Assembly: GCA_022824365.1 (NCBI GenBank)
Contig: JAJEAA010000029.1
Span: forward strand, 186,001-250,000
Direction of reading: 5' to 3'
Length of the DNA: 64,000 nucleotides
From: Anaerolineae bacterium
GTDB taxonomy: Bacteria; Chloroflexota; Anaerolineae; Aggregatilineales; Phototrophicaceae
Under the pieces are notes generated by a model. It was not told the origin of the DNA, ran no database searches, and saw nothing but the letters and a program-made list of their open reading frames with translations. The translations under genes and the position numbers were made by a program. This document shows, piece by piece, positions 7,748 to 38,273 of the stretch. Position 1 is the stretch's first letter. Each line of letters opens with the position of its first letter.

Positions 7748-7828
7748 GCCGACGGCGATACTAAGCAGTGTGCCTTATATATATGGCTGCTATACTTTTG
7801 GCGACGCCAAATAAACGAGGATGCCGAC

Positions 7829-8710: not shown

Positions 8711-8713
8711 CCA

Positions 8714-9751: not shown

Positions 9752-9821
9752 TCAAGATTCATAGCCGCTTTGACGGGGCTGATCATAACGCCGCCGCGAC
9801 AATACTCGCGCGACACGAATA

Positions 9822-9849
9822 TTGACATCTTGATAGGAGGGACTATACT
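9822..9849 (+). promoter_or_regulatory. Promoter of tRNA-Leu(CAG)
   Basis: TTGACA (9822-9827), 16 bp, TATACT (9844-9849). The consensus -35 box and the expected start near 9856 fit a tRNA transcript with a leader of about nine bases. Confidence 0.75.
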
Positions 9850-9864
9850 GCTTGTTATTAGCTT

Positions 9865-9948
9865 GCCGAAGTGGCGGAATTGGCAGACGCGCTACGTTCA
9901 GGGCGTAGTTCTCTTCGGGGAGTGTGGGTTCGACTCCCACCTTCGGCA
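9865..9948 (+). tRNA. tRNA-Leu, anticodon CAG
   Basis: The acceptor arms GCCGAAG and CTTCGGC pair perfectly, with A as discriminator. The D-loop GGCGGAATTGGCAGACGC is typical of class II tRNA-Leu. The anticodon stem CTACG/CGTAG encloses the loop TTCAGGG (anticodon CAG, reading CUG). A long variable arm and the T-arm GTGGGTTCGACTCCCAC follow. CCA is not encoded. Confidence 0.96.
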
Positions 9949-9955
9949 TTTATCT

Positions 9956-9980
9956 AGCTCGGCGCGCGGCCGGGCTTTTT
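9956..9980 (+). terminator. Rho-independent terminator of tRNA-Leu(CAG)
   Basis: AGCTCGGC (9956-9963) pairs with GCCGGGCT (9969-9976), with one G-U pair and a five-base loop, and runs into TTTTT. The rest of the 310-bp gap between galT and the next gene holds only the tRNA and its promoter. Confidence 0.8.
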
Positions 9981-10061
9981 CTATTGGCAGTCCCCTGCGC
10001 TGGCGGTTTCGCGACGCTGGTATAAGATAATGATGGATGCTGTCTTTGGACAACTATTGGT

Positions 10062-10526
10062 ATGGCGGAAATCGGCATGAACAGCGGGGCGGAAACGGGC
10101 AGCGCGAGCCGACCTAAGGCCGGCCGCAGGTTGACCAGCGTTCAGGTAATATTGGGCGTCGCCTTGACACTCGGGCTGGTGCTGGCTCTAAATTTCAGTA
10201 GCCGCATCAAATTGGATCGCGATCTTGGCCGCATCCATGATGAATTCGCTCGCGAGATAGATGGGTTGCTCGCTGATCAGCGCTCCCTGCTGTCCGAGTT
10301 GGATTACGTCAAGAGCGACGCTTATGTCGAGTATTGGGCGCGCGACGAAGGCAAGATGGTTCGGGATGGCGAAGTCCTGGTCTTTCCGCAAGGCGTTGGC
10401 GTCCAAGATGTTTTGCCCGCTTCGACCCGCCGCCTGTTCGACCTCGAAACGACAGCGCCTGAGCCGGAGAATTGGGAATTGTGGTGGGCTCTCTTCTTCG
10501 ATGGTCCGCCTCTAGTCCTGGATTGA
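10062..10526 (+). CDS. FtsB/DivIC-like single-pass membrane protein
   Basis: A 154-residue protein with a short basic cytoplasmic N-terminus, one membrane helix (about 30-48, VILGVALTLGLVLAL) and an extracytoplasmic coiled coil (about 55-85, LDRDLGRIHDEFAREIDGLLADQRSLLSEL in pieces), then YVEYWARDEGKMVRDGEVLVFP. This order and the YVE.WAR..G...GE.....P pattern are those of septum formation initiator proteins (FtsB/DivIC), which join the divisome with FtsQ/DivIB and FtsL. The start could also be Met6 at 10077. It stands alone between a tRNA and a convergent ygfZ-like gene. Confidence 0.72.
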   Translation: MAEIGMNSGAETGSASRPKAGRRLTSVQVILGVALTLGLVLALNFSSRIKLDRDLGRIHDEFAREIDGLLADQRSLLSELDYVKSDAYVEYWARDEGKMVRDGEVLVFPQGVGVQDVLPASTRRLFDLETTAPEPENWELWWALFFDGPPLVLD

Positions 10527-10553
10527 TGCTGCGGGCCGCATGAATCGAGACAG

Positions 10554-11633
10554 TTACTTCTCCTGAATCAACTGCGCCACATAAGGCGGTTGACAACCGG
10601 CATACTCCTTGACTGTGGCCTCGACTTCTTGCTCTCCAATGCTCAGGCTCGCGCCGGCTCGCGCCTGATTGAGCCGGACGACCGCTAGCGCATATATCTG
10701 GCCATCGGGCGCTGCGACACTGCTTGTAAGCCTTCCGACAGCGCGGCCGTCGGCGAAAATCTGCGCCGGCGCCGCGACCAGCTCGGACAGATTCAGTTTC
10801 ACGATAGTCTTTGCCAAGCGTCTGCGGCTTTCCATGCGCGCGATGATCTCTTGCCCGGTATAACAGCCTTTGCTGAAACTGACCTCGTCCCAAAGCCCGA
10901 CTTCCAGCGGAATGTAGTTAGACGAGAGTTCGAGACCCGCCGGCCGGCCGCTACGGATGCGCAAGGCATTGTAGGTCAGGGAACCGGCAGGAATCAGACC
11001 GCTCGCCGAGCCCTCGCGCAGCAGCAGGCTATGAACAGCGGCTGCCTGTTCAGCCGGGCAGATAAAGAGCCAATGCTCTCCGCAGAGCGGTTTGCGCCGC
11101 GCCAGCGTAAGCCGACAGCCGGCCGCTTCCAGTTCGATACAGCCCATCAAGGCCAAGTCCGCCGCAGCCGGGGCGAGCGATGCAACAACAGCGTGGGCGC
11201 TCGGACCGTGAATGGCGAATTGCGCCGTTTCTCCGGCGCTTTCGCGCAGAGCCGCTTTGTCGCCGAAGAATATATTGCGCCGCAAGAATTCCGCCAGGGC
11301 GCCGCCTTGCCCCGCTTCGCTGATTAGCAGCAATCCCTCCGGTCGATTCAGACAGACAACTCTGAACAATATTCGCGCATTGGCATTGGTGAAGATGGTC
11401 GCGCAACCATTGTTTTCGGCCAAGGCGGCGACATCGTTGGTGGACATGCGATTGACCAGGTTGAGACGATCGCGTCCGCTCAAAAGGATGCGTCCTTCGT
11501 GAGAACGATCGAGTAGAATGGCTGAGCCGGACACCGATTCAAACTCGGCTGCCAGATCGCCGTAATCCAGCGGAATACGATCGGGCGCCAGATTAGCGCC
11601 AAGCTTGAGGTGATGCTCCGTAAGCGCAGTCAT
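10554..11633 (-). CDS. ygfZ: YgfZ/GcvT-fold folate-binding protein
   Basis: The 359-residue protein carries the YgfZ signature KGCYTGQEIIARMESRR, with the conserved Cys that defines this group within the GcvT (aminomethyltransferase) fold. LSGRDRLNLVNRMSTND is the N-terminal folate-binding block. YgfZ is a tetrahydrofolate-dependent helper in the repair and maturation of some Fe-S clusters in E. coli and mitochondria (IBA57). The start lies 5 bp after the gmk-like stop, so the two form an operon. It converges with the FtsB-like gene. Confidence 0.88.
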   Translation of the reverse strand: MTALTEHHLKLGANLAPDRIPLDYGDLAAEFESVSGSAILLDRSHEGRILLSGRDRLNLVNRMSTNDVAALAENNGCATIFTNANARILFRVVCLNRPEGLLLISEAGQGGALAEFLRRNIFFGDKAALRESAGETAQFAIHGPSAHAVVASLAPAAADLALMGCIELEAAGCRLTLARRKPLCGEHWLFICPAEQAAAVHSLLLREGSASGLIPAGSLTYNALRIRSGRPAGLELSSNYIPLEVGLWDEVSFSKGCYTGQEIIARMESRRRLAKTIVKLNLSELVAAPAQIFADGRAVGRLTSSVAAPDGQIYALAVVRLNQARAGASLSIGEQEVEATVKEYAGCQPPYVAQLIQEK

Positions 11634-11638
11634 GACGG

Positions 11639-12256
11639 CTAGCTCAGAAGACCGCGGTCGGCCAGTTCGCGCTTGATTATGGCGCGGGCGCGCCCAATCG
11701 CTTGCGACAGATCGTCATTAACAACGACATAATCACATTCATCTTGGTAGGGCAATTCCAGAGTCTTGGCTCGCTCCAGCCGCTTCTCAATATCAGTGTT
11801 TGGATCCGCGCGCTCTACCATTCTCCCTCGCAGGACCGCCAGTTGCTGCGCGATGTCATTGCCCGGCACGGTGATGTATATCTGGACTACATTGTCTCCA
11901 AAAGCCTTCGCCATTACCTTCGCGCCCAGCACCTCTATATCGGCGATACGAACGGCGCCCACGACCAGCGCGTCGACAACGGTCTGACGGGGAATGCCAT
12001 AGAATTTGCCGGGTGTCACTTCTTGGTATTCGAGCAACTCGCCGCGTTTGATCATTCGCTTGAATTCTGTCCGGCTGACGAAGAGGTGTTCCCGACCTTG
12101 CGCTTCATCGCTGCGCATCTGCCGAGTAGTTGCGGTCGCCAACTGCTGGACAATGCCGATGTCAGCGATTAGCGCCTTCATAATCGCATTTTTGCCGGCG
12201 CCGCCCGGTCCAATCATGACAAAGATGACGCCAGGAAGTTTCTCACAAGCGTACAC
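11639..12256 (-). CDS. gmk: Guanylate kinase-like protein with variant P-loop
   Basis: The 205-residue protein has the guanylate kinase layout: a P-loop GPGGAGKN (about 17-24), then TATTRQMRSDEAQGREHLF (the GMP-binding block, TTR.....E..G) and VVNDDL near the end. It would phosphorylate GMP to GDP. Deviations: the residue after the P-loop lysine is Asn instead of Ser/Thr/Gly, and the adjacent GMP-binding segment reads LLEYQEVTPGKFYGI, which is normal. The reading starts with GTG at 12256; a start further in would lose the P-loop. The length fits the family (about 200). Divergent from folD, and in operon with ygfZ. Confidence 0.8.
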   Translation of the reverse strand: MYACEKLPGVIFVMIGPGGAGKNAIMKALIADIGIVQQLATATTRQMRSDEAQGREHLFVSRTEFKRMIKRGELLEYQEVTPGKFYGIPRQTVVDALVVGAVRIADIEVLGAKVMAKAFGDNVVQIYITVPGNDIAQQLAVLRGRMVERADPNTDIEKRLERAKTLELPYQDECDYVVVNDDLSQAIGRARAIIKRELADRGLLS

Positions 12257-12431
12257 TGTATGTTATCCTAACAGAGAAAATGGCGCAGCTTAGTGTAGCA
12301 AGAGGATTGATAGTTCTCCATAGCCAAGCGCGCATGAAACAGTCTCGAGCGGGGTAGCAAACTGGCGCTGCCTAAGCATGTCGCTGATAGAGGGCGATCG
12401 TAAGGCGGCTCTTTGTGGAAAGGAATTCAAC

Positions 12432-13319
12432 ATGCCGGCGGAAATCATCGATGGACGGGCGGTAGCAAAGCGCCTGCAAGGAGAAATCGGCAAGACGGTC
12501 GTAGATTTTGAGAACAAGACCGGCTTTGTGCCCGGCCTGGGTGTTGTGCTAGTCGGCGATGACGCGGCTTCAGCAATGTATGTGCGGATGAAACGGCGCG
12601 CTTGCGAGCGGGTCGGCATCCATTCCAAGGCGGAGATTCTACCGGCTTCAGCCACTCAGGCTGAGGTGGAGAATGCCGTTCGAAGCTACAATGCCGATCC
12701 GAGTATTCATGGTATTCTGGTTCAATTGCCAATGCCAGACCATATTGACGAAGAGGCGGTCCTCAACGAAGTCAGCCTGGCAAAAGATGTCGACGGCATC
12801 CATCCAATGAACTTGGGTCGGCTGGGTATGCGAGGGCGCGAGCCCAGCTTTACGCCGGCCACGCCGACCGGCGTCATGACGCTGATCAATGAGACTGGCG
12901 CGCAAGTTGAAGGGGCGGAGGCGGTCGTGATCGGGCGCAGCAATATTGTTGGTCTGCCTGTCGCGCTGATGCTGGCCAATGCCAACGCCACTGTGACGAT
13001 TTGCCATAGTCGGACGCGTGATCTGCCAGCAGTGATCAAACGCGCGGACATCGTGGTGGCGGCGGTTGGACGCGCCGAGTTCGTCAAAGGCGACTGGCTG
13101 AAAACTGGCGCTGTGGTCATTGATGTGGGTTCAAATTCGCTGCCCGATGCGAACAGCGAAAAAGGCTATCGTTATGTCGGCGATGTTGATTATGCTGCGG
13201 CGCTGGCGGTGGCTGGCCATATCACGAAAGTGCCGGGCGGGGTCGGTCCCATGACCATCACAATGCTCCTGGCGAATACGCTGAAAGCGGCTCAGCGCAG
13301 CCGGGGCCTGGCTGGCTGA
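12432..13319 (+). CDS. folD: Bifunctional methylenetetrahydrofolate dehydrogenase/cyclohydrolase
   Basis: FolD interconverts 5,10-methylene-, methenyl- and 10-formyl-tetrahydrofolate in the cytoplasm. This protein (295 residues) has the substrate block YVRMKRRACERVGI with the catalytic Lys, the family signature GILVQLPMPDHI and the NADP site VIGRSNIVGLPVA, ending in KVPGGVGPMTITMLLANT. I use ATG 12432 and not 12378 because AAAGGA precedes it and homologs start at MPAEIIDG. It opens the long plus-strand run. A 94-bp gap separates it from the purine genes, so read-through into them is possible. Confidence 0.95.
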   Translation: MPAEIIDGRAVAKRLQGEIGKTVVDFENKTGFVPGLGVVLVGDDAASAMYVRMKRRACERVGIHSKAEILPASATQAEVENAVRSYNADPSIHGILVQLPMPDHIDEEAVLNEVSLAKDVDGIHPMNLGRLGMRGREPSFTPATPTGVMTLINETGAQVEGAEAVVIGRSNIVGLPVALMLANANATVTICHSRTRDLPAVIKRADIVVAAVGRAEFVKGDWLKTGAVVIDVGSNSLPDANSEKGYRYVGDVDYAAALAVAGHITKVPGGVGPMTITMLLANTLKAAQRSRGLAG

Positions 13320-13413
13320 GAGAATTTACCCTGGCCGCTCACGGACAGGAGCGATGTTGCGTCAGCATGTGGACGAGTGGATTCAAACCTGACAGATGAC
13401 AGCGAGCTAGGTA

Positions 13414-24409: not shown

Positions 24410-25771
24410 ATGTCCGATATGATCATCGTAAACGGGACGCTTGTCACCTTGGGCGGGGCTCCGCGCATATTACCCGATCAGGCGCTGTATATCGCCGACG
24501 GGCGGATAATGGCCTTGGGCAAGCGCGCCGATTTGGCGGCGCTGCATCCCAATGCCGACATTGTGGATGCCCGCGGACAATATGTGATGCCCGGCAACAT
24601 CTGCGCCCACACCCATTTTTATGGCGCCTATGCCCGCGGCATGGCGATACCGGGTCCGGCGCCGCGTGACTTCCCACAAATTCTGAGTCGCTTGTGGTGG
24701 CCGCTGGATAAAGCCCTGGATCGAGAGAGTGTGCGGGCGAGCGCCCTGGTCTGCCTTGTCGACGCGGTCAAGCACGGGACGACCAGCCTGGTTGATCATC
24801 ATGCCAGTCCAAACTTCATCCACGGCAGCCTTGATGTCATTGGCGATGCCATTGACGAGGCTGGCCTGCGCGCCGTCTTGTGCTACGAAGTGACCGATCG
24901 CGATGGCATGAACAAAATGCGCGCCGGTATCGCCGAAAACTTGCGCTTCATGGCGAAGTCAGCGACCCATCCGCGGATACGCGGGACCTTTGGTCTCCAC
25001 GCCAGCTTGACGCTCAACGATGAAAGTCTGCGCGCCTGCGCCGATGCCATTACGACGGACGGCGGCTATCATATCCACGTCGCCGAACACGAGGCGGACG
25101 AAGAGGACAGTCTGCGCCGCAGCGGAGCGCGCGTGGTGGAGCGGCTGGACCAATACGGCATCTGGCGCGATTCCACCATCGCCGCGCATTGCGTGCATAT
25201 TGACAATGCTGAGCGAGATATTTTGCGCGAGCGGGGCGTCTGGGTCAGCCATCAGCCGCGCTCTAATATGAACAACGGCGTGGGAGCGGCTGATATCGAT
25301 GGCTTGCTTGATGCCGGCATCAAGCTCTGCCTTGGCAATGATGGCTTCAGCAATAATATGTGGGCGGAATGGAAAGCGGCTTATCTCCTGCACAAGGTCG
25401 TCAATCGCGACCCGCGCCGCGCAAATGGCATGAACATCGCCCAAATGGCTTGGGGGAATAACGCCCGCTTGATCGGGCGATTTTTCCCCGGCGAGACCAT
25501 CGGCGAGATTGTCCCGGGCGCGGCCGCCGATTTGATCTTCGTCGATTATCAGCCCTTCACGCCGCTTACCGCCGGCAATCTGCCCTGGCATCTGCTGTTT
25601 GGCTTTGAGGCGTCGATGGTGACCGCTACGATCTGCGGGGGCCGCCTGCTCATGCGCGATCGGGAGTTGCTCACGCTGGACGAAGCCGAGATCGTGGCGG
25701 AGGCCATGGCATTGGCGCCAAGAGTTTGGGAAAAGTATACGCGAAACGCCCAGGATACTTTACAATCCTAG
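24410..25771 (+). CDS. ssnA: SsnA-type putative aminohydrolase
   Basis: A 453-residue amidohydrolase. Metal site residues: CAHTHFYGAYARG (His67, His69), the block DHHASPNFIHGSL, HIHVAEHEADEED, then AAHCVHID and LGNDGFSNNMW with the catalytic Asp. DHHASP..I.GSL and NARSNMNN-like QPRSNMNNGVG match E. coli SsnA rather than guanine deaminase. SsnA is part of the purine/xdh region in enteric bacteria; its substrate is thought to be a purine-derived amine. It has a strong AGGAGG ribosome site. It is the last purine gene before the F420 block. Length compared with E. coli SsnA (442) is normal. Confidence 0.88.
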   Translation: MSDMIIVNGTLVTLGGAPRILPDQALYIADGRIMALGKRADLAALHPNADIVDARGQYVMPGNICAHTHFYGAYARGMAIPGPAPRDFPQILSRLWWPLDKALDRESVRASALVCLVDAVKHGTTSLVDHHASPNFIHGSLDVIGDAIDEAGLRAVLCYEVTDRDGMNKMRAGIAENLRFMAKSATHPRIRGTFGLHASLTLNDESLRACADAITTDGGYHIHVAEHEADEEDSLRRSGARVVERLDQYGIWRDSTIAAHCVHIDNAERDILRERGVWVSHQPRSNMNNGVGAADIDGLLDAGIKLCLGNDGFSNNMWAEWKAAYLLHKVVNRDPRRANGMNIAQMAWGNNARLIGRFFPGETIGEIVPGAAADLIFVDYQPFTPLTAGNLPWHLLFGFEASMVTATICGGRLLMRDRELLTLDEAEIVAEAMALAPRVWEKYTRNAQDTLQS

Positions 25772-25802
25772 AAATACTGTGACGGCTGGAACAGGGGCGG
25801 AT

Positions 25803-26465
25803 ATGAAGACACTGGCGATTCTGGGCGGTACTGGCAAGGAAGGCGCTGGCTTGGCCATGCGCTGGGCGCTAAAGGGCTATCGCGTTATCATCGGGTCGCG
25901 CGCGGCGGAAAAGGCCGAGCGGCGCGCGAGAGAGATGAATGCCGAACTCGGCGATGACTTGCTGACCGGTTTGGCGAACGAAGACGCCGCTGCCGCGGCT
26001 GATATCGTGATTCTTAGTGTGCCATATAGCGCGCATGGCCCCACGCTGTGTGACTTGCGCGAGCAATGTCGCGGCAAAATCCTGGTTGATTTGACCGTAC
26101 CGTTGAAGCCGCCCGAGATCATGGCGGTCAATCTGCCCGAAGGCGGCGCCGCGGCAATTGAGGCGCAAGCCATGTTGGGCGATTCTGTATCCGTGGTCGC
26201 CGCCTTTCAGAATGTCAGCGCGATCAAGCTGCGGCAACTCGATCGGGATGTCGATTGCGATGTCTTGGTCTGCGCCGATGACGCCGATGCCAAGTCGGCG
26301 GTCATTGAATTGGTCATTGCCGCCGGCATGCGCGGTATCGATGCGGGTCCTCTGAAGAATGCGGTGGCGGCCGAGTCTTTGACTCCCATACTCTTGCATA
26401 TCAACCGCGCTTACAAGGTCAAGGGCGCCGGCATTCGCATTACCGGCTTGGAAACATCAGAATGA
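25803..26465 (+). CDS. npdG: F420-dependent NADP oxidoreductase (NpdG/Fno family)
   Basis: A 220-residue Rossmann protein. MKTLAILGGTGKEGAGLAMRWALKG is the NADP-binding start typical of NpdG, with GSRAAEKAERRA next, where the basic residues bind the 2'-phosphate. DIVILSVPYSAH and GAGIRITGL at the end also match the family. It moves hydride between F420H2 and NADP+, coupling the deazaflavin pool to NADPH. ATG 25803 is preferred over 25779 since the Rossmann strand starts there. It overlaps cofE by 4 bp, the first of several overlaps in the F420 genes. Confidence 0.9.
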   Translation: MKTLAILGGTGKEGAGLAMRWALKGYRVIIGSRAAEKAERRAREMNAELGDDLLTGLANEDAAAAADIVILSVPYSAHGPTLCDLREQCRGKILVDLTVPLKPPEIMAVNLPEGGAAAIEAQAMLGDSVSVVAAFQNVSAIKLRQLDRDVDCDVLVCADDADAKSAVIELVIAAGMRGIDAGPLKNAVAAESLTPILLHINRAYKVKGAGIRITGLETSE

Positions 26466-27229
26466 GCCACGCGCCAAGATTGACCGCCTTTGCCATCCCG
26501 GCTATCCCGCTCATCCGCTCAGGTGATGATATTGTTGACATAATCCTGGCGCGGGCGGCTGCGGCGGATATGCAAATCCAAGATGGCGATGTATTGGTCA
26601 TCGCGTCCAAGATCGTCGCCAAAGCCGAGGGACGTTATTTGCGCTTGTCAGAGGTATGCCCTTCGGAGCGGGCCGATGCGCTGGCGGCCGAGACGGGAAA
26701 GAATCCTCGCCTGGTCGAGTTGATCTTGCAGGAGTCCAACGCGATCTCGCGCAAGCGCCTGGGCGTACTGGTCACGGAGCATCGTCTGGGTTTCGTCTCC
26801 GCCAATGCCGGCGTCGATCAGAGCAATATAGAAGCAGGTGATGATGCGGCGCTGCTTTTGCCGCGCGATCCAGATGGCGCGGCCGCCGCGATTCGCGCCG
26901 ATATCAAGGCGCGTTGCAGCATCGATGTCGCCGTCATCATCAGCGATACGCACGGCCGAGCCTTTCGTGTGGGCAATGTAGGCGTCGCCATCGGCGCTGC
27001 CGGCTTGCCGGCGGTCAAGGATCTGCGCGGCAGCCGCGATCTCTATGGTCGCATGCTTGAGGTGACGCAATTGGCTTACGCCGATCTGGTCGCGTCGACG
27101 GCGCACTTGCTTTCCGGTGAAGCGGACGAAGGTTTGCCGGCGGTCGTGATCCGTGGACTGGACCTGAGCGCAAAGCACGGACGCGCGGCTGATATGATCC
27201 GTTCGGCCGAGCATGATCTTTATCGCTAA
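26462..27229 (+). CDS. cofE: Coenzyme F420-0:L-glutamate ligase
   Basis: The 255-residue enzyme adds glutamates to F420-0 with GTP. GDVLVIASKIVAKAEGR (about 40-58) is the diagnostic CofE block, then LVTEHRLGFVSANAGVDQSN and the metal-binding VIISDTHGRAFRVGNVGVAIG. It corresponds to the N-terminal domain of mycobacterial FbiB; the C-terminal domain is a separate gene here, directly downstream. Overlaps npdG by 4 bp. Confidence 0.94.
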   Translation: MSHAPRLTAFAIPAIPLIRSGDDIVDIILARAAAADMQIQDGDVLVIASKIVAKAEGRYLRLSEVCPSERADALAAETGKNPRLVELILQESNAISRKRLGVLVTEHRLGFVSANAGVDQSNIEAGDDAALLLPRDPDGAAAAIRADIKARCSIDVAVIISDTHGRAFRVGNVGVAIGAAGLPAVKDLRGSRDLYGRMLEVTQLAYADLVASTAHLLSGEADEGLPAVVIRGLDLSAKHGRAADMIRSAEHDLYR

Positions 27230-27236
27230 GTCAGCG

Positions 27237-27842
27237 ATGAATCCCGACGCCCTGCTGCAATTCATGCGCGAGCGCCGCTCACTGCGACGCTATGAGGCGC
27301 GTGCCGTTCCGCCGGAATGCATCGAGCAATTGCTGGAAGCCGCCAGTTGGGCGCCATCCGCTCATAACCGGCAGCCCTGGCGCTTCGTGGTTATAGAAGC
27401 GCCCGCTATCAAGGAGCGGCTGGCGCGGGAAATGGGCGCGCGCCTACGCCTCGACTTGCAAGCGGATGGTATGGCGGAAGAGTTCATCGAGAACGATGTC
27501 GGGCGTTCCTACGCGCGCATTACCTCGGCGCCGCTTTTGCTCCTGCTCTGTATGAGTCTTGGCGATATGGATGTCTATGCCGACGACCAGCGCAACGCGC
27601 ACGAGGCGACCATGGCGCAACAAAGCGCGGCGATGGCGGGCCAGAATATATTACTGATGGCCGCCAGCCTCGGCTTAGGCGCTTGCTGGATGTGCGCGCC
27701 CTTGTTCTGCCAGGGCTTAGTCGCATCGGTTTTGGACCTGCCCGTCGACTGGCGACCGCAAGGCATGATCACGTTGGGTTATCCGGCGCAGATTCGAAAG
27801 CGAAGCCGCGACCCTTGGGAAGCAAAAACATTGTGGCGATAG
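27237..27842 (+). CDS. Nitroreductase-fold protein resembling the C-terminal domain of FbiB
   Basis: A 201-residue FMN-binding nitroreductase. FMRERRSLRRYEAR and ASWAPSAHNRQPWRFVVI are the FMN phosphate and ring site, followed by AASLGLGACWMCAPLF. In mycobacteria this domain is fused to CofE as FbiB and reduces dehydro-F420-0 to F420-0. Being next to cofE and cofD, the free-standing protein most likely does the same step. The start could be 27213, which overlaps cofE, but homologs begin near MNPDALLQFM; this remains uncertain as neither has a good ribosome site. The end overlaps cofD by 10 bp. Confidence 0.82.
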   Translation: MNPDALLQFMRERRSLRRYEARAVPPECIEQLLEAASWAPSAHNRQPWRFVVIEAPAIKERLAREMGARLRLDLQADGMAEEFIENDVGRSYARITSAPLLLLLCMSLGDMDVYADDQRNAHEATMAQQSAAMAGQNILLMAASLGLGACWMCAPLFCQGLVASVLDLPVDWRPQGMITLGYPAQIRKRSRDPWEAKTLWR

Positions 27843-28777
27843 ACAAGAATGTTGTTGTCCTGATCGGCGGCGTCGGCGGAGCCAAGCTGGCGCTCGGTTT
27901 GAGCCAGGTGGTGAAGCCCGAAAGGCTAACCTTCATCGTCAACACTGGCGATGATTTCTGGCATCTCGGCCTAAAAATCTGCCCGGACCTCGATACGCTG
28001 ATGTATACTCTGTCCGGCTTGGTTGACCCCGCCACTGGCTGGGGCGTCGCGCATGACTCCGATGCGGTATTAAGAAGCCTGCATGTAAATTTTGGTCTTG
28101 AGCCCTGGTTTCGGCTCGGTGACAAAGACCTGGCCACGCATCTCATGCGGACGCAAATGTTGCGATCAGGAAACACGCTGACCGAAGCGACTGTGTGCCT
28201 GACTGAGCGTTTAGGCATTCGCGCGCGCTTGCTGCCTATGTCCGATGCCGAAGTGCCAACGATCGTGGATACCGCCGAAAAGGGCGAGCTCGGTTTTCAA
28301 AAATACTTCGTAAAGCACCGCTGGCAGCCGACTGTCAGATCGATACGACATCAGAATTGTGAAAGGGCGCAAGTTTCGACGGCTGTCCAAGCGGCCCTTG
28401 CCGCCGCGGATATGGTGTTGCTTGCGCCATCCAACCCCTGGCTTTCGCTGGCGCCGATCCTGGCGGTTCCCGGTCTGCGCGCCCTCCTCAAAGACCTGAC
28501 CTTGCCAATTGTGGCGGTGACGCCGATTATTGCTGGCGACGCTGTAAAAGGTCCGACGGCAAAGATCATGACTGAGCTTGGCATTGATGTATCGGCGAAG
28601 TCAGTGGTCGATTACTTCGGCGTCTTGATTAATGGTTTTGTTGACGACATTCGCAACGAGCCCTTTGACGATGGGAGGCTGCGTCTGGCGCGGATGGATA
28701 CGCTGATGACAGACCTGTCGGCCAAGGTCGGCCTGGCGCGCGCAATTCTGGCTTGGATCGAGGGCTGGGCGCCATGA
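27833..28777 (+). CDS. cofD: 2-phospho-L-lactate (or PEP) transferase of F420 synthesis
   Basis: A 314-residue CofD/FbiA enzyme joining the guanylylated side-chain precursor to FO. VVVLIGGVGGAKLALGL (from residue 7) is the family start, NTGDDFWHLGLKICPDLDT the FO/metal site and LLAPSNPWLSLAPIL the late signature. I place the start at GTG 27833, preceded by GGGAAG, since the ORF-track start (27683) lies within the preceding gene and is in excess of the family length (about 310). Overlap with cofC by 4 bp (ATGA) indicates coupled translation. Confidence 0.92.
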   Translation: MAIDKNVVVLIGGVGGAKLALGLSQVVKPERLTFIVNTGDDFWHLGLKICPDLDTLMYTLSGLVDPATGWGVAHDSDAVLRSLHVNFGLEPWFRLGDKDLATHLMRTQMLRSGNTLTEATVCLTERLGIRARLLPMSDAEVPTIVDTAEKGELGFQKYFVKHRWQPTVRSIRHQNCERAQVSTAVQAALAAADMVLLAPSNPWLSLAPILAVPGLRALLKDLTLPIVAVTPIIAGDAVKGPTAKIMTELGIDVSAKSVVDYFGVLINGFVDDIRNEPFDDGRLRLARMDTLMTDLSAKVGLARAILAWIEGWAP

Positions 28778-29421
28778 GCCTTTGGGCTATCATTCCGGTG
28801 AAACCGCTGAAAAACGCCAAGAGTCGCCTGGCGCCGGCTTTGCTGCCCAATCAGCGATTCGAATTGGCTCAAGCGATGTTTCGCCATGTGCTCTCTGTGA
28901 CCGCTACAATTCAACAGGTCACAGGCGTGCTGGTGATTTCCCGCGATACCAAGGCGCTGGCGATAGCCCGGGAATTGGGCGCTAAGACCTTGCAGGAAGG
29001 CGCTTTATCGAATCTTAATCCCGCGCTCCTGCGAGCGACCATGGTGGTCAAGAGCTGGCGCGCCGACGCTGTTCTGATCTTGCCGGCGGACCTGCCCTTC
29101 ATCAATGCGGAAGACATCCGCGCGATGATCCGGCTGGCTGATGAAGATTCTCTTGTCATCGCCACCGATCGCGAACGCGATGGCACCAACGCCCTGCTGA
29201 TTCGCCCGCCCGGCGCGATCGAATATGAATACGGCCGCGGCAGTTACGCGCGGCATATTCACTTGGCGGAGAAAGTCGGCCTGCGTGTCTCCACCTATCA
29301 ATCTGACCGAATGGCTCTGGATATTGATGTTCCTGAGGATCTCAGAGATTATCAGGAAATCCTGGCGGGCGGCCAGTTCGGTCACTTGCCGTCCTTCCCG
29401 CTGGCGCTCGGCGCGAGTTGA
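28774..29421 (+). CDS. cofC: 2-phospho-L-lactate guanylyltransferase-type enzyme (CofC/FbiD)
   Basis: The 215-residue nucleotidyltransferase activates 2-phospholactate or phosphoenolpyruvate with GTP for CofD. IIPVKPLKNAKSRLAPAL is the family-specific N-terminus with the GTP-binding K..KSRL pattern, and LILPADLPFI holds the metal-binding Asp. GRGSYARHIHLAEKVGL and DIDVPEDL are later conserved blocks. Start at 28774 overlaps the cofD stop as ATGA. With the nitroreductase beside it, the PEP (dehydro-F420) route is more likely than the phospholactate route. No fbiC/cofGH for the FO core is in the window. Confidence 0.92.
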   Translation: MSLWAIIPVKPLKNAKSRLAPALLPNQRFELAQAMFRHVLSVTATIQQVTGVLVISRDTKALAIARELGAKTLQEGALSNLNPALLRATMVVKSWRADAVLILPADLPFINAEDIRAMIRLADEDSLVIATDRERDGTNALLIRPPGAIEYEYGRGSYARHIHLAEKVGLRVSTYQSDRMALDIDVPEDLRDYQEILAGGQFGHLPSFPLALGAS

Positions 29422-29435
29422 GGTCGGGGCATGAT

Positions 29436-29463
29436 TTGCCTCAAGAGGCGATGATGATAGATA
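29436..29463 (+). promoter_or_regulatory. Possible internal promoter before the F420 oxidoreductase
   Basis: TTGCCT (29436-29441), 16 bp, TAGATA (29458-29463) within the 84-bp gap that is the widest inside the F420 part. Weak matches, so tentative. Confidence 0.28.
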
Positions 29464-29505
29464 ATATCGGTGACAAGGGATGCACTAGCGAACTGGAGAA
29501 TTCTC

Positions 29506-30510
29506 ATGGCTGATCGGGTAGCGCTTTATCTGCAGGACGCGCACAATTTGGCTGACGCGATCGAATATGTGAAATATGCTGAGTTATGCGGTTTTGAGGC
29601 GGTCTGGCAAGCCGAAAGCCGCCTGGTTCGCGACGCGATCGTGCCGATGGCCGCTTTCGCCGCCGTCACCTCGCGCATCAAAATCGGCTCGGGCGTGATT
29701 AACAACTGGACGCGAAACGCCGCCGTGATCGCTGCCACTTTCCTCACGCTGGATGACTTGGCGGAAGACCGTATCTACTGCGGCATTGGCGCTTGGTGGG
29801 ATCCTCTGGCGGCGAAAGTCGGCATCACCCGCCGCAAAAACCTGCTCGCCATGCGCGAAGTGGTGACTGTGGTCCGTCGACTGTTGAATCGTGAACGCGT
29901 CAGCTTTGATGGCGAATTTGTCCAGATGGATGACGTGGAACTGGATGTCGTGCATGGACGCAAGGAACCACGTAACGTGCCCATATATATTGGCGCGACC
30001 GGGCCGAAGATGATGGCGCTCACGGGTGAAATCGCTGACGGCGCCGTGCTGAATTATTTGGTCTCTCCCAAATATAATGAGATGGCGATGGCGCAACTGG
30101 AGATCGGGGCGAAGAAGGCAGGCAAATCGATCCATGATGTGGATCGGCCCCAGCTTGTCGTCTGCTCGGTGGATAATGATCGAGCCAAGGCGCTCGACGC
30201 CGCCCGCAAACTCGTGACGCAATACCTTGGGCAACAGCCGCATATCATGAAAGCCAGCGGCGTCAGCCAAGAATTGCTCGATGAAATCGGACAAGTTTTG
30301 ACCTGGCCCGCTACCGAGGAGCAGATCCTGGAAGCGATGAAGCTGGTGCCGGACGAAGTCGTGCAGATGATTACCGCTTCCGGGACGCCGGCTGAAGTCA
30401 AGGCCAAGGTGCGTGAGTATATCGCGGCAGGCGCGACTTGTCCCATTCTTTACCCGCTGGGTGAGGATGTTCGCCTCATGATCGACACCTTCGCCGGCGG
30501 CTACTCGTAA
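29506..30510 (+). CDS. LLM-class F420-dependent oxidoreductase (Mer-like)
   Basis: A 334-residue TIM-barrel protein of the luciferase-like monooxygenase superfamily in its F420-dependent branch. [19 protein letters not shown] and [20 protein letters not shown] resemble methylenetetrahydromethanopterin reductase (Mer) and related enzymes; [23 protein letters not shown] is the common cofactor block. It would use F420H2 to reduce, or F420 to oxidise, an unknown substrate. The start at 29506 fits CTGGAG upstream. Its position directly after cofC makes F420 use very likely. A Mer-like role on folate or methanopterin is possible but unproven. Confidence 0.85.
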
Positions 30511-31215: not shown

Positions 31216-32643
31216 ATGTGGCGAGCTTATTACAGTGTCAGCAGCATTGATGAAGCGCTCGCGCTTTTGGACGAACACCAGGCGACAGCGCGTATTGTGG
31301 CCGGCGGCACCGATCTGATCATCGAGATGGAACACGGCGGACATCCTCAGCTAAAAGCGCTGATTGATATCACCCGCGTGCCCGGTCTGGATCAAATTCG
31401 CCTCGAAGACGACACGATTGTATTGGGCCCACTCGTGACCCACAACCATGTCGTGAGCAGTGAATTGATCCGGCTGAGGGCGCTTCCGCTGGCGCAAGCA
31501 TCTTGGGAAGTCGGCGCGCCTCAAATACGTAACCGCGCCACTGTCGCCGGCAATCTGATCACCGCGTCGCCCGCCAACGATACCATCACGCCGCTGATCG
31601 CCATGGATGCCGAAGTGACCCTGGTTTCGGCCGAAGGCGAACGGACGCTGAAGCTGGCCGATTTCTATAGCGGCTTTCGACAGACCGTCCTCCGTCCGAA
31701 TGAGCTGCTGCTTGCCATTCGCATTCCGGCGCTGGAAGCCGACCAGCGCGGTGTTTTTCTGAAACTGGGCTTGCGGCGCGCCCAAGCCATTTCTGTTGTG
31801 GATGTCGCTGCAGTTTTGCGTCGCGACAAAGATCAACGGGTTGCGGAGGCTCGCATAACGCTAGGCAGCGTTGCCGCTACTATCATTCGCGTGCCCGCCG
31901 CCGAGCAATTCTTGCTTGGCAAGCGGTTGACGGCGGAGACGATCGCCGAGGCCGGGCGCCTAGCCAGCGCGACTGCTACGCCGATCGACGATGTACGCGG
32001 CAGCGCCGAGTATCGTAGCGAAATGGTCAAGATCCTAGTCCTACGCGCGCTGCGCCAGTTGGCGGCGGCTGAGCAAGAGAGCGGCTTGCCCGCTGCGCCT
32101 CCCATGCTCTGGGGCGGAGATGGCGCCATCGTAAAGCGCGGTCTCCCGCGGCAAATCCTTCATAGGCCCGATACGCCGATCGAATGCCGCGTCAACGGCG
32201 AAGACTTGAGCATCCCCACCGGTCAACAGAAATCACTGCTGCATTGGCTCCGCGATGATGTCGGCCTGCTCGGCGCCAAGGAAGGCTGCGCCGAAGGCGA
32301 ATGTGGCGCTTGCACGGTCTTCTTGGATGATGTGGCGGTCATGTCGTGCATGGTGCACGCGCCGAGGGCGCATGGCGCCGCGGTCGTCACGGTCGAAGGC
32401 TTGCGGCAGGGCGAGCGTCTGCATCCTATTCAACAAGCTTTCATCGATGAAGCCGCCGTTCAATGCGGTTACTGCACACCGGGCTTCTTGATGGCGGGGG
32501 CCAAACTTCTGGAAGAAATTGCCGAACCCGACACTGAACAGATCAACTACAGTATCAGCGGCAACCTTTGTCGCTGCACCGGCTATTATAAAATCGTGGA
32601 GGCTTTTCGTCAGGCGAGCAAAGCGAAGGCGAGAATCAGATAA
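31216..32643 (+). CDS. Molybdenum hydroxylase (xanthine dehydrogenase family) FAD and [2Fe-2S] subunits fused
   Basis: A 475-residue fusion. Residues about 1-285 are a CoxM/XdhB-type FAD domain (ATARIVAGGTDLIIEME, then APQIRNRATVAGNLITASPANDT). Residues about 318-475 are a CoxS/XdhC-type ferredoxin part: CAEGECGACTVFLDD holds three Cys of cluster one with the fourth in MSCM, and CGYCTPGFLM plus CRCTGYYKIV bind the second cluster. It carries electrons from the Mo site to FAD. The order FAD then Fe-S is unlike fused xanthine dehydrogenases, where Fe-S comes first. GGAGG lies 9 bp upstream of the start. Substrate likely a purine, from context. Confidence 0.93.
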   Translation: MWRAYYSVSSIDEALALLDEHQATARIVAGGTDLIIEMEHGGHPQLKALIDITRVPGLDQIRLEDDTIVLGPLVTHNHVVSSELIRLRALPLAQASWEVGAPQIRNRATVAGNLITASPANDTITPLIAMDAEVTLVSAEGERTLKLADFYSGFRQTVLRPNELLLAIRIPALEADQRGVFLKLGLRRAQAISVVDVAAVLRRDKDQRVAEARITLGSVAATIIRVPAAEQFLLGKRLTAETIAEAGRLASATATPIDDVRGSAEYRSEMVKILVLRALRQLAAAEQESGLPAAPPMLWGGDGAIVKRGLPRQILHRPDTPIECRVNGEDLSIPTGQQKSLLHWLRDDVGLLGAKEGCAEGECGACTVFLDDVAVMSCMVHAPRAHGAAVVTVEGLRQGERLHPIQQAFIDEAAVQCGYCTPGFLMAGAKLLEEIAEPDTEQINYSISGNLCRCTGYYKIVEAFRQASKAKARIR

Positions 32644-32652
32644 GGACAGCGT

Positions 32653-34407
32653 ATGGACCGACGCGTTCCCAAAACAGGCAGCGAAGAAGTCGAACTTTAT
32701 ATGCGCACTTATTATTCGCTGCTGCGCTCCAGCGATAGCATCAAGATCGAGACCTTGGTCGAAAGCCATTTGGCAATGTCATCGTCATTGCACGAGCATG
32801 CTGATGCCGCCGAGCTGGATGCCTCCGCTTTGATGTATAGCGCTTTGCGCCTGCCCAGTTGTATCATCGATGTCGACGAGGTCCTGGTCGGGCAATTGGA
32901 GCGCGCATTCGTCGCCGCTGGCTACAAGAACATCTCAGCCTGGCAGCGCGTCTATGCGCCTGGCCGCCGCCGCCGCACGCACTTCAATGGCGATAGCGCC
33001 ATGGCGGTTTTCATTGTCAGCCGCTCCGATATTGACGATCTCGTGCCTATGTTGACCGCTTTTCAGATCGAATGGAACAAGTTGCACCGTCTGCTGCAGG
33101 CGGAGGACTTGCGCCTTCTGCTTGAACCCTTTGCCGAGGAGGGCCGGCTGCCGGATGCGGAATTCGATGAACTGGCGACTTGCCTGCGGATGGCCGTTAG
33201 CGACTTGCGACGCCTCCAGCTGTTGTGGGGCGCCGACTTCGTGAATAACTTGCTGCGCATCGGACGACGGCGCAAGAGCATGACCTTGCGTTTGATCTCC
33301 GGCTCGCTCGCCGATTATCGCCGCGCGACTGCCTCCTGGTGGTATGAACTCTGTGAAGAGATGGCGCTTGCCGACATAGATCTTCAGGAACGGCCCGTTT
33401 ACTTCGTCTCCAGCAATACCCATTCCTTGATCAATTTGCTGGCCGGTTTCGCCCGCCGCTTTGAAGAGAGCCTGGTCAACTATATCGAGCAGTTTGAAGA
33501 AAAGTCGCTGCTGACCGAGTACGAAGATCTCAAAGAGAGCTACCACAAGAGCATCGATAACTTCTTGTATTTTGTCTTGCGTCAATATCTTTCGGAACAA
33601 GGCGGTCAGGCGAAACGCATACTCCAGAAAGAGGAACATCGCCTCGGCATCCATCGTGTGCCCAGCCGGCACGGCTTCGAAATGGAAACACAGGTGATCG
33701 AACTGGGTAAACTGGAAGCGCAATGGTTTGATCCGCGCCTGGGCCGGGCTGATGACCTAGAGCCTTTGCGACATAGCAACGCCATCATCATCAATATTGA
33801 TTACCCGCTGGGTATGGCGTCTTATGAGCTTCTTAGCCGGATATCCCAAGGCGTTGGCCGGCTTGATGGCGTCTATGTCATGGGCAAGGCGGCCACGCTA
33901 AACGGTCGCATCGGCGATATGATGATCCCGAACGTGATTCACGATGAGCACTCGCAGAATACCTACCTCTTTCGCAACTGCTTTACCGCGCGTCACGTCC
34001 GCTCCTGGATGGAGCACGGCAACGTCCTTGACAATCAGAAAGCGGTCACCGTTCTGGGCACCTTTCTGCAGAACCCGCACTATATGAGCGTTTTCTACAA
34101 AGAAGGCTACACCGATATCGAAATGGAAGGCGGACCATACCTTTCGGCGGTATACGAGGCCTTCCGCCCGCAGCGGCATCCGGTGAATGAAATTGTAAAT
34201 CTGCATTCGGTGCGCTTTGATATCGGCTTCTTGCATTACGCATCGGATAAACCCATGAATCGCGGGCAGAACCTGGGCGCGGGCAGCTTGAGTTATGGCG
34301 GTGTGGAGCCGACCTATGCTGCCGCCATCGCTATATTGCGCCGCATCTTTTACAACGAAACGGAAAAGTTCATTGAGACGACATTCGAGGCGATTCCATC
34401 GTATTGA
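32653..34407 (+). CDS. Large protein of unknown function between the Mo-hydroxylase subunits
   Basis: A 584-residue soluble protein, start 9 bp after the fused subunit. Residues 1-250 are helical and charged, without a known motif. The middle (about 245-350) has YFVSSNTHSLINLLAGFARRFEE and a long helix. The last 200 residues include GVYVMGKAATLNGRIGDMMIPN, then IEMEGGPYLSAVYEAF and SLSYGGVEPTYAAAIAILRR. The pair G.GK....GRIGD and MEGG...AVYEA loosely recalls the nucleoside phosphorylase/hydrolase fold (MTAN/PNP), where a late Met-Glu binds ribose. I cannot name the family. Position inside a purine hydroxylase gene set makes a nucleoside-related role attractive but unproven. Confidence 0.72.
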   Translation: MDRRVPKTGSEEVELYMRTYYSLLRSSDSIKIETLVESHLAMSSSLHEHADAAELDASALMYSALRLPSCIIDVDEVLVGQLERAFVAAGYKNISAWQRVYAPGRRRRTHFNGDSAMAVFIVSRSDIDDLVPMLTAFQIEWNKLHRLLQAEDLRLLLEPFAEEGRLPDAEFDELATCLRMAVSDLRRLQLLWGADFVNNLLRIGRRRKSMTLRLISGSLADYRRATASWWYELCEEMALADIDLQERPVYFVSSNTHSLINLLAGFARRFEESLVNYIEQFEEKSLLTEYEDLKESYHKSIDNFLYFVLRQYLSEQGGQAKRILQKEEHRLGIHRVPSRHGFEMETQVIELGKLEAQWFDPRLGRADDLEPLRHSNAIIINIDYPLGMASYELLSRISQGVGRLDGVYVMGKAATLNGRIGDMMIPNVIHDEHSQNTYLFRNCFTARHVRSWMEHGNVLDNQKAVTVLGTFLQNPHYMSVFYKEGYTDIEMEGGPYLSAVYEAFRPQRHPVNEIVNLHSVRFDIGFLHYASDKPMNRGQNLGAGSLSYGGVEPTYAAAIAILRRIFYNETEKFIETTFEAIPSY

Positions 34408-34449: not shown

Positions 34450-36675
34450 GTGTTAAATGAAACGACCGCGGTCATCAGTGAATCCATGAAGCGCATAGAC
34501 GCCAGGGGCAAGGTCACCGGCGAAACCCCTTATCCCGGCGATATTGATATCGACGGCCAACTCTGGATGCGCATCAAGTTTAGCGAACGCGCCCATGCCC
34601 GTGTGGCGCGCATAGACGTTAGTCAGGCAGAAGCGCTGCCCGGCGTCATCCGCGTATTTACGAGCCAAGATGTGCCGGTTAACGAATATGGCTTGGTGAT
34701 GAAGGACCAGCCAGTGCTCTGCGGTCCCGACGGTGACAAAGCCGGGACCGATGTCGTGCGCTGCTACATGGACATGGTGGCCACGGTCGTCGCGGAAACG
34801 GACGACATCGCCAGGCGCGCGCTCGACTTGATCCAGGTCGAATACGAAGATTTGCCCGCGGTATTTGATCCCGAAGATGCCATGGCGGCATCTGCGCCGC
34901 AGTTGCATCCTGAGCATCCTCAAAATCTGGTGACGCAATACCGCATCCGCCGGGGAGATATGGCGGCCGGCTGGGCGGCGGCCGATGTCGTTGTCGAAGG
35001 CGAATACGAGACCACCTGGCAGGAACACGCCTATCTCCAGCCGGAAGCCGGTCTCTCATATATTGACGAAGAAGACCGCGTCACCGTGGTCGTAGCCGGC
35101 CAATGGACGCACGAAGACCAGGAACAGATTTATCATGCGCTCAACCTGCCGCCAGCGGAAGTGCGCGTGATATACCCAGCGATTGGCGGCGCCTTCGGTG
35201 GCCGCGAAGACATGTCGGTGCAGATCGTCTTGGCGCTGGCGAGTTGGAAGCTGCGCCGGCCGGTGAAGATCCAGTGGAATCGCGAAGAATCCATTCTCTA
35301 CCATCACAAGCGCCATCCCATCAAAGTTCGCGCGAAATGGGGGGCGGCTCGGTCCGGCAAATTGACTGCGGTCCAGGCCGAGGTCATCGGCGACGCCGGG
35401 GCCTATAACTATACTTCCAACAAGGTGCTGGGCAACGCCCACATCAACGTCAGCGGTCCTTATGAAATTCCCAACATCAACATTGATACTTACGCCGTCT
35501 ATACCAACAACATCCCATCGGGAGCTTTTCGCGGCTTCGGCGCGCCCCAGGCTCTGCTGGCCGCCGAAGGGCAGATGAACCGTCTCGCGGCCGCGCTGGA
35601 TATAGATCCCCTGCAAATCCGCTTGATCAACAGCATCCGCGAAGGCAGCATCGGCACAGTCGCTACGCCCTTTCCCGCCGGTGTGACTATGCCTGAAGTC
35701 TTTGAGGCTTGCGGCAGAGAGTCCTGGTGGCGCGAAACGACCGCAGGCTGGACGTTGCAAAAGCCAACTCAACCAACCGACAAAAGCAAGCGGCGCGGCC
35801 GCGGACTGGCCGGTGGCTTCAAAAATGTCGGTTTCGGCTTCGGGTACCCCGAACATTGCTGGGCTGGCATCGAATTGCTGGGCAGCACGGAGATCGAGAC
35901 GGTCATTCTTTACCAGGCCGGCGCCGATGTGGGGCAAGGGGCGCATACCGCCCTTTCGCAAATGGCGGCTGATGCCGTCGGTGTGCCATTTGACAAGGTG
36001 CGGATCGTCGCCTCCGACACCGCCACCTCCGGATCTTCAGGCAGCGCTTCCGCCTCGCGGCTGTCATTCATGTCCGGCAATGCCATCCGCGGCGCCGCTG
36101 AAATCGCCTTGCGCAAATGGCGCGACGAAGAGCGGCCCGCCAAAGGCGAGTTCATGTATCACCCGCCGCCGACCACCGATTTTGACCCGCAAACCGGCAA
36201 GGCGGAACCTAACTTCGCCTATGGCTACGTGGCGGAAGCGGTCGAAGTTGAAGTCGATATCGAAACGGGTCAGGTGCAATTGATCGATGTGGTTTGCGCC
36301 AACGATGTCGGCAAAGTGATCAATCCGCAGCAACTGGAAGGTCAGATTGAAGGCGCGGTCATTCAGGCTCAAGGCTATGCGCTGATGGAGTATCTAGTAT
36401 CGCGCGAGGGCAAGATCCTTAATCCCTATCTGTCGACCTATCTGATCCCGACCTCGCTGGATGTGCCGCCCCGGATAAAGTCGGTCGTGTTGGAAAATCC
36501 CGATCCGCTCGGTCCTTGGGGGGTTCGCGGCATGGCCGAGATGCCCTTCTTGCCTCTGGCTCCGGCTATAGCTGCCGCTATCTACGACGCCACCGGCGTC
36601 TGGGTTGATTCCCAACCCTTTCTTGCCCAGAAGGTCGTCAAGGCGCTGCGCAAGCATGGCATTGGCGCGGTCTGA
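34450..36675 (+). CDS. Molybdenum hydroxylase (xanthine dehydrogenase family) Mo-binding subunit
   Basis: A 741-residue large subunit. After the small N-terminal domain (RIDARGKVTGETPYPGDI), GAFGGREDMSVQIVLA, PSGAFRGFGAPQALLAAEGQMNR and GADVGQGAHTALSQMAA bind the molybdopterin cofactor, and the catalytic Glu is in RGMAEMPFLPLAPAI near the end (GMAE in place of the common GxGE). The GAFRGFG loop is that of purine-type hydroxylases; the CO dehydrogenase loop (AYRCSFR) is absent. GTG 34450 has GAGG upstream; ATG 34486 is an alternative. It pairs with the fused FAD/Fe-S protein, but another gene is between them. Presumed substrates are hypoxanthine, xanthine or a related ring. Confidence 0.93.
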   Translation: MLNETTAVISESMKRIDARGKVTGETPYPGDIDIDGQLWMRIKFSERAHARVARIDVSQAEALPGVIRVFTSQDVPVNEYGLVMKDQPVLCGPDGDKAGTDVVRCYMDMVATVVAETDDIARRALDLIQVEYEDLPAVFDPEDAMAASAPQLHPEHPQNLVTQYRIRRGDMAAGWAAADVVVEGEYETTWQEHAYLQPEAGLSYIDEEDRVTVVVAGQWTHEDQEQIYHALNLPPAEVRVIYPAIGGAFGGREDMSVQIVLALASWKLRRPVKIQWNREESILYHHKRHPIKVRAKWGAARSGKLTAVQAEVIGDAGAYNYTSNKVLGNAHINVSGPYEIPNINIDTYAVYTNNIPSGAFRGFGAPQALLAAEGQMNRLAAALDIDPLQIRLINSIREGSIGTVATPFPAGVTMPEVFEACGRESWWRETTAGWTLQKPTQPTDKSKRRGRGLAGGFKNVGFGFGYPEHCWAGIELLGSTEIETVILYQAGADVGQGAHTALSQMAADAVGVPFDKVRIVASDTATSGSSGSASASRLSFMSGNAIRGAAEIALRKWRDEERPAKGEFMYHPPPTTDFDPQTGKAEPNFAYGYVAEAVEVEVDIETGQVQLIDVVCANDVGKVINPQQLEGQIEGAVIQAQGYALMEYLVSREGKILNPYLSTYLIPTSLDVPPRIKSVVLENPDPLGPWGVRGMAEMPFLPLAPAIAAAIYDATGVWVDSQPFLAQKVVKALRKHGIGAV

Positions 36676-36911: not shown

Positions 36912-38273
36912 ATGAGATTTGCCCAAGCCTTTGAACTGGCGCCCGGCGATGTAGTCGCCTTCGTCGGCGCTGGCGGCAAGACATCACTCATGGTCAGTTT
37001 GGGATATGAACTTGCCGAAGCGGGCTGGCGCGTTCTAGCGACTACTACAACCCAACTCGCCAAAGATCAGTTGGCGCTCTTTCCTTGCGTCTTGCCCGCT
37101 GATACTGATGCCCGCGCGATATCGCAGGCGCTAAGTGAAAAGCAATTCGTCTTGTTGCACGACGAGGTTAGTGGGGGAAGCGTTTACGGACCGGCGCCTG
37201 AGTGGACGCGGCAAATGCTGGATAGCGTTGATTCTGATATCTTGCTGGTAGAAGCCGATAACGCGCGTGGCTTGCCTTTCAAGGCTCCATTGGCGGATGA
37301 ACCGCGGATTCCGCCGGAGACATCGTTGGTAATTGCGGTAGCATCGCTTAAAGCCCTGGGCGCGCCGCTGGATAATGATCATATTTACAATCCGCGAGCG
37401 ATGATCGAGAAGTACGGCTTTGCCGAGAACAGTCCGGTCAAATCTCCCTGGCTCGCGCAAGTCTTGCGTGATGAGGACTTGGGCTTGCGCGGCGTCCCGC
37501 AAGACGCGAGAGTTTTGATCTTCCTCAATCAAACGCCGGAACGCGGTTATGTCCGCGGCCGGGCTCGCATGATCGCGCGCTTGAGCCTGCAAAGCGAGCG
37601 CATCAGCGCAGTCGCGCTTGGCTCGGTCCGGGGCGTGGAACCGGTATACGAATTGCAGCGGGCGGTTGGCGCGCTGGTCCTGGCGGCCGGCGACGCCTCC
37701 TGCCGGAACCTTGACGCCCTCCTGCAACCAGTCGATACCGGCGGCTGCGCCTTGGCGAATGTCACCGAACAACTGATGCGCTCTCGAATTGATCATATCC
37801 GCCTGGTCACTGGCCGGGGCGCCCGCGATGTGAAAAAAGCCGTGAAGCACCTCGGTGTCAAATCAATTCAAAATCGCGCCTGGAAATCCGGAGGCCTTGT
37901 CTCTTCGCTCAAAGCGGGTTTTGGCTCCCTGCCGGATCACGTCGCTGCGGCGCTTCTGGCGCCCTGCTGCGAGGCGCGCATCCAGCCCAAGTTGATCTAT
38001 CAACTCTTTTCCGCATTTGCGCGCTGCGACGGAGACTTCATCGTTCCGCAGTTTCAACGACGGTACAACCAACCGATCCTGATCGCGCGGAAATACTGGG
38101 ACGAAATCCTCAAGCTGCCGCGCCAAACCGACCTGCGCTCCATCATCAACCACTTTGAGGCTCAGGTGACCTTTGTCGATGTGGACGCCAACGGTATCTT
38201 CCGCGATGGCGATTCGCTTAACGATACGGGCCGCAGGCGCCGGCCCGCAAGCATAAAGCATCACGGACCCTAG
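36912..38273 (+). CDS. YqeC-MocA fusion, Mo-hydroxylase maturation; MocA half degenerate
   Basis: A 453-residue fusion. Residues 1-240 are YqeC (selenium-dependent hydroxylase accessory protein): AFVGAGGKTSLM (17-28) is the P-loop, ATTTTQLAKDQ and DILLVEADNARGLPFKAP follow. Residues 253-453 align with MocA-type cytidylyltransferases, but the nucleotide motif LAAGxSxRMGxxK reads LAAGDASCRNLDA, and the GDxP metal motif is replaced by APCCEA. So this half probably lost catalysis and may only scaffold cofactor transfer. In E. coli yqeC and mocA lie beside xdhD and ssnA. It lies 236 bp after the Mo subunit; that gap shows no clear promoter. ATG 36912 has GGAG upstream. Confidence 0.85.
   Translation: MRFAQAFELAPGDVVAFVGAGGKTSLMVSLGYELAEAGWRVLATTTTQLAKDQLALFPCVLPADTDARAISQALSEKQFVLLHDEVSGGSVYGPAPEWTRQMLDSVDSDILLVEADNARGLPFKAPLADEPRIPPETSLVIAVASLKALGAPLDNDHIYNPRAMIEKYGFAENSPVKSPWLAQVLRDEDLGLRGVPQDARVLIFLNQTPERGYVRGRARMIARLSLQSERISAVALGSVRGVEPVYELQRAVGALVLAAGDASCRNLDALLQPVDTGGCALANVTEQLMRSRIDHIRLVTGRGARDVKKAVKHLGVKSIQNRAWKSGGLVSSLKAGFGSLPDHVAAALLAPCCEARIQPKLIYQLFSAFARCDGDFIVPQFQRRYNQPILIARKYWDEILKLPRQTDLRSIINHFEAQVTFVDVDANGIFRDGDSLNDTGRRRRPASIKHHGP

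Follow-up and report, generated by a model that had tools for sequence, protein, structure and literature searches.

MocA (YgfJ; PucB in Bacillus subtilis) is a CTP:molybdopterin cytidylyltransferase, represented by profile TIGR03310. Among the molybdenum hydroxylases, 4-hydroxybenzoyl-CoA reductase carries MCD, the cytosine-dinucleotide form of the cofactor. The nicotinate dehydrogenase of E. barkeri is selenium-dependent and its MCD has been identified (PMC2276186), while the xanthine dehydrogenase of Rhodobacter capsulatus carries Mo-MPT (PMC2997495). YqeC (TIGR03172) is an accessory protein of selenium-dependent molybdenum hydroxylases, with YqeB as its usual partner; Clostridioides difficile deleted for YqeC showed no clear phenotype (PMC11448449).

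The locus described here encodes a YqeC-MocA fusion and lies in a stretch of 64,000 nucleotides, positions 186001-250000 of contig C6 in an Anaerolineae genome of the Chloroflexota, hereafter the window. In the preliminary description a fused pseudoenzyme was considered unusual. This does not apply to the fusion itself, which is ordinary, being the rule in the order and common across the class. It does apply to the loss of the MocA motifs, which is special to the genus and shared in part by one other genome. What is out of the ordinary is that a MocA half stripped of its catalytic motifs has been retained under selection throughout the genus.

The fusion gene and its surroundings

The yqeC-mocA gene (36912..38273, plus strand), identified as an open reading frame with profile matches, encodes 453 amino acids; a further in-frame ATG is present at 36909 and the open frame starts at 36804. 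The YqeC half, comprising the first ~225 residues, scores above the cut-offs of both PF19842 (E 9.9e-35, 120 bits, cut-off 27.6) and TIGR03172 (140 bits, cut-off 73). Its P-loop, GAGGKT (residues 19-24; 36966..36983, +), is intact, and is invariant or nearly so in 52 relatives. The last ~190 residues form the MocA-like nucleotidyltransferase half, which matches NTP_transf_3 with 63.6 bits and TIGR03310 with 79.8 bits. The latter score is below the curated cut-off of 186 bits, as is likewise the case for intact fused relatives within the order (145-186 bits).

Upstream of the fusion gene is the operon of a xanthine-dehydrogenase-type molybdenum hydroxylase, with a fused FAD/[2Fe-2S] subunit (31216..32643, +; profile matches) and a molybdenum-binding subunit (34450..36675, +; profile matches and solved relatives). 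Among solved structures, the molybdenum subunit is most closely related to those of 4-hydroxybenzoyl-CoA reductase (1rm6) and of nicotinate dehydrogenase (3hrd). The window's genome contains five molybdenum-hydroxylase catalytic subunits. Between the two subunit genes lies that of a DUF6909 protein (32653..34407, +; PF21850, 718 bits), which occupies this place in the operon not only in the genus but also in several further lineages of the order. A sequence search gave no solved relative for this protein; its C-terminal DIEMEGG stretch tentatively recalls nucleoside phosphorylases or nucleosidases. An F420 cluster, with npdG-like, cofE, nitroreductase, cofD, cofC and LLM oxidoreductase genes, occupies positions 24410-30510, directly upstream of the operon. 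The stretch from cofC to the LLM gene is syntenic in the genus loci examined, and in all 15 degenerate loci of the genus examined with long flanks the genes between cofC or cofD and the fusion follow this order.

YqeB (TIGR03309), usually encoded between xdhMo and the fusion outside the genus, has no match in the window's genome, nor in 33 of the 34 genus genomes. The selenium-cofactor trait, consisting of SelD, YqeB and YqeC, is thus incomplete in the window's genome by its YqeB component; SelD is present. The SelD genes of this genome (G000:C32:180140-181075) and of most relatives contain one in-frame TGA, probably encoding selenocysteine, so these organisms likely use selenium. The only YqeB of the genus is part of a second molybdenum-hydroxylase locus in one member, G031 (L120, G031:C15:325662-345420, positions 7170-13411), together with an XdhD-like subunit, an FAD subunit, a YqeC without a MocA domain, and XdhC. 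We considered loss of YqeB as a trigger for the decay of the MocA half and rejected it: G034, G035 and several genomes of family f2 are without a clear YqeB, yet their fused MocA is intact.

Motif loss, its distribution and the stand-alone MocA

We aligned the window copy with E. coli MocA and with intact fused relatives. All five MocA motifs are lost. The nucleotide-binding signature LAAGxSxRMGxxK reads LAAGDASCRNLDA (residues 257-269; 37680..37718, +), the GEM(L)SS motif (GEMxSS) has become GGLVSS (residues 327-332; 37890..37907, +) and the GDQP metal site (GDxP) APCCEA (residues 350-355; 37959..37976, +). Further on, RGHP is replaced by YNQP (residues 385-388; 38064..38075, +) and D(I/V)DTPED (DxDTP) by RDGDSLND (residues 431-438; 38202..38225, +). 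The signature lysine and the metal-site aspartate are gone, and the alignment shows no equivalent residues for them. The claim of the preliminary description that the MocA half has no catalytic motifs is therefore borne out; to the nucleotide-binding and metal-site losses it reported, residue mapping adds the other three.

The collection contains 34 genomes of the window's genus, and 59 of the 61 relatives searched for the fusion matched. Within the genus there are 33 fusions, none being found in G019 only, and 32 of these are degenerate. The exception is G033 (UBA6055), the only genus member with an intact MocA half. All 19 outgroup copies, from the family and the order, are intact. The nucleotide-binding signature is lost in each of the 32 degenerate copies and intact in the 20 others (G033 and the outgroups). 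The metal-site aspartate survives in 20 of the 32, so the decay is graded within the genus. In 19 of the 32 a lysine or arginine is displaced from the signature by one residue, and in five genomes a deletion spans the nucleotide-binding loop. Because the same domain is degenerate in 32 genomes, with frames open throughout, a sequencing error or a local pseudogene is ruled out.

A scan of GTDB genomes for the fusion yielded 80 loci, of which 79 could be read in a single frame. In this set L157, from genome G063, is the only degenerate copy outside the genus, and its degeneration is partial (LAASASEHMDMPK, ADQP, RGYP). In a tree of the YqeC halves, with modest supports (0.53-0.94), the 32 genus copies form one clade with G033 as its sister, and L157 clusters with the intact L159 and L181. 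The motif loss is one phylogenetic event in the genus, with at most one more in G063; this, like the graded decay, weighs against the explanation favoured below.

Several other Anaerolineae families have a divergent fused MocA (L208-L219 and L222), in which KQLL follows the signature, either ADQP or ADLP is present, and GHP is absent. A change of specificity is possible in these proteins. Their genomes also possess another MocA, which in G133, G195, G167 and G216 is in tandem with the divergent one. The reverse of the window's arrangement is seen in a single genome from another family of the order, G044, where the molybdenum subunit is immediately followed by an intact MocA that has no YqeC attached (L207, G044:C9:10232-20795, positions 4932-5591).

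The bin prefixes of many genus records (COS, RHO, CAR, APA) apparently correspond, judging by name, to the sponge hosts Coscinoderma, Rhopaloeides, Carteriospongia and Aplysina (PMC8163846). Sponge lifestyle as the sole cause of the motif loss is weakened by L184 (RHO3_bin_8) and L185 (COS1_bin_10), which have sponge-type names, lie outside the genus and keep the motifs.

The preliminary description suggested searching the rest of the genome for an intact mocA, and there is one: a stand-alone gene at C25:223713-224264 (138.7 bits), whose product has canonical motifs (LAAGLSSRMVENK, PADMP, RGHP, DVDT). It is the last gene of a cluster that begins with a MadB-type AAA ATPase, a MadC-type VWA protein, an XdhC of the aldehyde-oxidoreductase maturation type and a MoeA-like protein. 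Throughout the genus and also in G033, wherever the contig extends far enough, the stand-alone gene is accompanied by this MadB-MadC-XdhC-mocA cluster, and an intact mocA adjoining XdhC is present in nearly all genus genomes. The assemblies of G013 (87% complete) and G031 (94%) contain a degenerate fusion and no stand-alone mocA that we could find, which counts against the explanation we favour below.

A search of 46 fusion genomes outside the genus gave just one MocA (E <= 1e-20) in 45 of them; the exception, with two, is G063, the same genome that has the decaying fusion. The stand-alone MocA proteins of the genus group with those of G033 and G063 in a single clade (support 1.0). This pairing of fused-MocA decay with an extra stand-alone mocA is suggestive. 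A strict rule, by which a stand-alone mocA means decay of the fused one, agreed with the sample of 46 genomes but does not hold for the class as a whole, where families such as f34, f27 and f28 have another MocA as well as a fused one whose nucleotide-binding signature is kept. Since the two coexist elsewhere in the class, redundancy permits the loss but does not force it.

Predicted fold and selection on the MocA half

An AlphaFold2 model of the dead MocA domain (pLDDT 89.1, pTM 0.88) confidently predicts that a MobA/MocA-like fold is kept, in agreement with the preliminary description, which had noted the retained fold length. The best Foldseek matches are Sulfolobus 3d5n, Rv0371c and E. coli MobA, with TM-scores of 0.70-0.84 on the target; the intact G036 fusion (pLDDT 92.9) has the same neighbours with better scores. 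The former nucleotide-binding loop is modelled with reduced confidence (blocks of 70-73), and the C-terminal tail (residues 430-453), helical in the intact protein, is predicted to be disordered.

Despite the lost catalytic residues, the MocA half is under purifying selection. Nei-Gojobori dN/dS estimates for close pairs, which are descriptive because the pairs share branches, have a median of 0.17 for the MocA half (pairwise 0.08-0.37; 82 close pairs within the genus) and 0.10 for YqeC; the same two values are obtained for a 51-pair subset. For the intact MocA that these genomes encode as a stand-alone gene the value is 0.26 (35 pairs). Relative to YqeC, the MocA half has diverged 1.93-fold in the genus and 0.96-fold in intact copies.

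These figures bear on the possibility that the MocA half, once redundant, is vestigial and decays without function under relaxed selection. Its evolution at about twice the rate of YqeC would fit, as would the disordered tail and the higher dN/dS (0.24-0.37) in the five genomes without the nucleotide-binding loop. However, the dN/dS is well under 1, and also under that of the intact stand-alone enzyme. None of the 32 copies is truncated or has a premature stop, although ~2.9% of random point changes in MocA-half codons would create one and a single stop codon could remove this C-terminal domain. Compared at equal mean divergence (~50% identity), the genus copies also conserve other columns than the intact ones: catalytic columns have turned variable, and columns that vary in intact relatives have become near-invariant. 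We therefore regard a functionless remnant as unlikely; the selection analysis favours a functional pseudoenzyme, as the preliminary description had supposed, over a relic.

The residues newly conserved are R297, P351 and R371 (453-residue numbering), near-invariant in the genus and absent or rare in the outgroups, and thus derived. R297 is located on a strand with the sequence HIRLVTG (37794..37814, +). Other genus-conserved residues (R290, R292, R322, P359 and K360) are mostly common to close family members. The derived residues, together with the purifying selection, could indicate a pocket rebuilt around R297, R322, P351 and R371 that binds or transforms another ligand. But the loop of the former pocket is variable, modelled with reduced confidence and deleted in five genomes, making such a new catalyst or ligand binder quite improbable.

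Possible role and relation to known systems

We consider it rather probable that the MocA half of the genus is a pseudo-cytidylyltransferase that gives YqeC a non-catalytic module for structure or docking, with CMP transfer taking place in trans. The usual YqeC-MocA fusion of the order, beside its xanthine-dehydrogenase-type operon, presumably helps to mature the cofactor of that operon. In the genus, the nucleotidyltransferase fold would have been kept and, judging from the motifs, the binding of CTP-Mg and the transfer of CMP to Mo-molybdopterin lost. The hydroxylase, still MCD-like, would then probably be supplied in trans, the CMP transfer being done by the MocA of the MadB-MadC-XdhC-mocA cluster and not by the fusion. 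Purifying selection retains the dead half, which may serve YqeC as a non-catalytic part, most likely by offering a surface for the apo-hydroxylase, the cofactor or the stand-alone maturation proteins; this is the least certain step. Delivery or insertion of the cofactor, put forward in the preliminary description, is a possible role for the fusion. More tentatively, the dead half may be a handover module, docking to take MCD from the stand-alone MocA and presenting it, with YqeC, to the apo-hydroxylase. If so, the dinucleotide maturation of the molybdenum cofactor would include a pseudoenzyme, and this would provide a handle on the role of YqeC; our literature search found no pseudoenzyme of the MocA family or of this maturation step.

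MocA activity could also have become unnecessary at this operon if its hydroxylase used Mo-MPT instead of MCD. The R. capsulatus enzyme is a precedent, and the absence of an intact mocA from the G013 and G031 assemblies would be in keeping with it. The molybdenum subunit, though, is nearly unchanged relative to those of relatives with an intact fused MocA: only six of 281 outgroup-invariant columns are changed in the genus, which gives no indication that MCD has been abandoned. MCD enzymes are, moreover, among its closest solved relatives, and we judge this explanation highly improbable. That the MocA half is still a cytidylyltransferase through displaced catalytic residues is scarcely credible: the retained fold, the surviving aspartates and the offset basic residues would allow for it, but the window copy has neither the lysine nor the aspartate nor aligned substitutes, five copies are wholly without the loop, and RGHP and DxDT are lost too.

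With the MocA half read as a non-catalytic module, the genus constitutes a natural separation-of-function experiment, in which YqeC is tied to a conserved MocA domain predicted to be catalytically incapable. Whatever the dead domain still does, be it binding, docking or assembly, is likely to be the role of the fusion beyond CMP transfer. Within this group of Chloroflexota, annotating such proteins as cytidylyltransferases is probably a mistake.

Compared with MocA (YgfJ) and PucB, the MocA half of the window is alike in predicted fold and length, is recognisable by profile and also adjoins a molybdenum hydroxylase, but it has none of the five conserved motifs and is fused behind YqeC. The N-terminal half resembles YqeC in its intact P-loop and its place in a molybdenum-hydroxylase operon; it differs in bearing a MocA domain and in the absence of YqeB from all but one genus genome. 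The intact YqeC-MocA fusions of other Anaerolineae share the architecture of the window's protein and, within the order, also its operon. Unlike it, they keep their MocA motifs, and most of those in the order have YqeB between xdhMo and the fusion.
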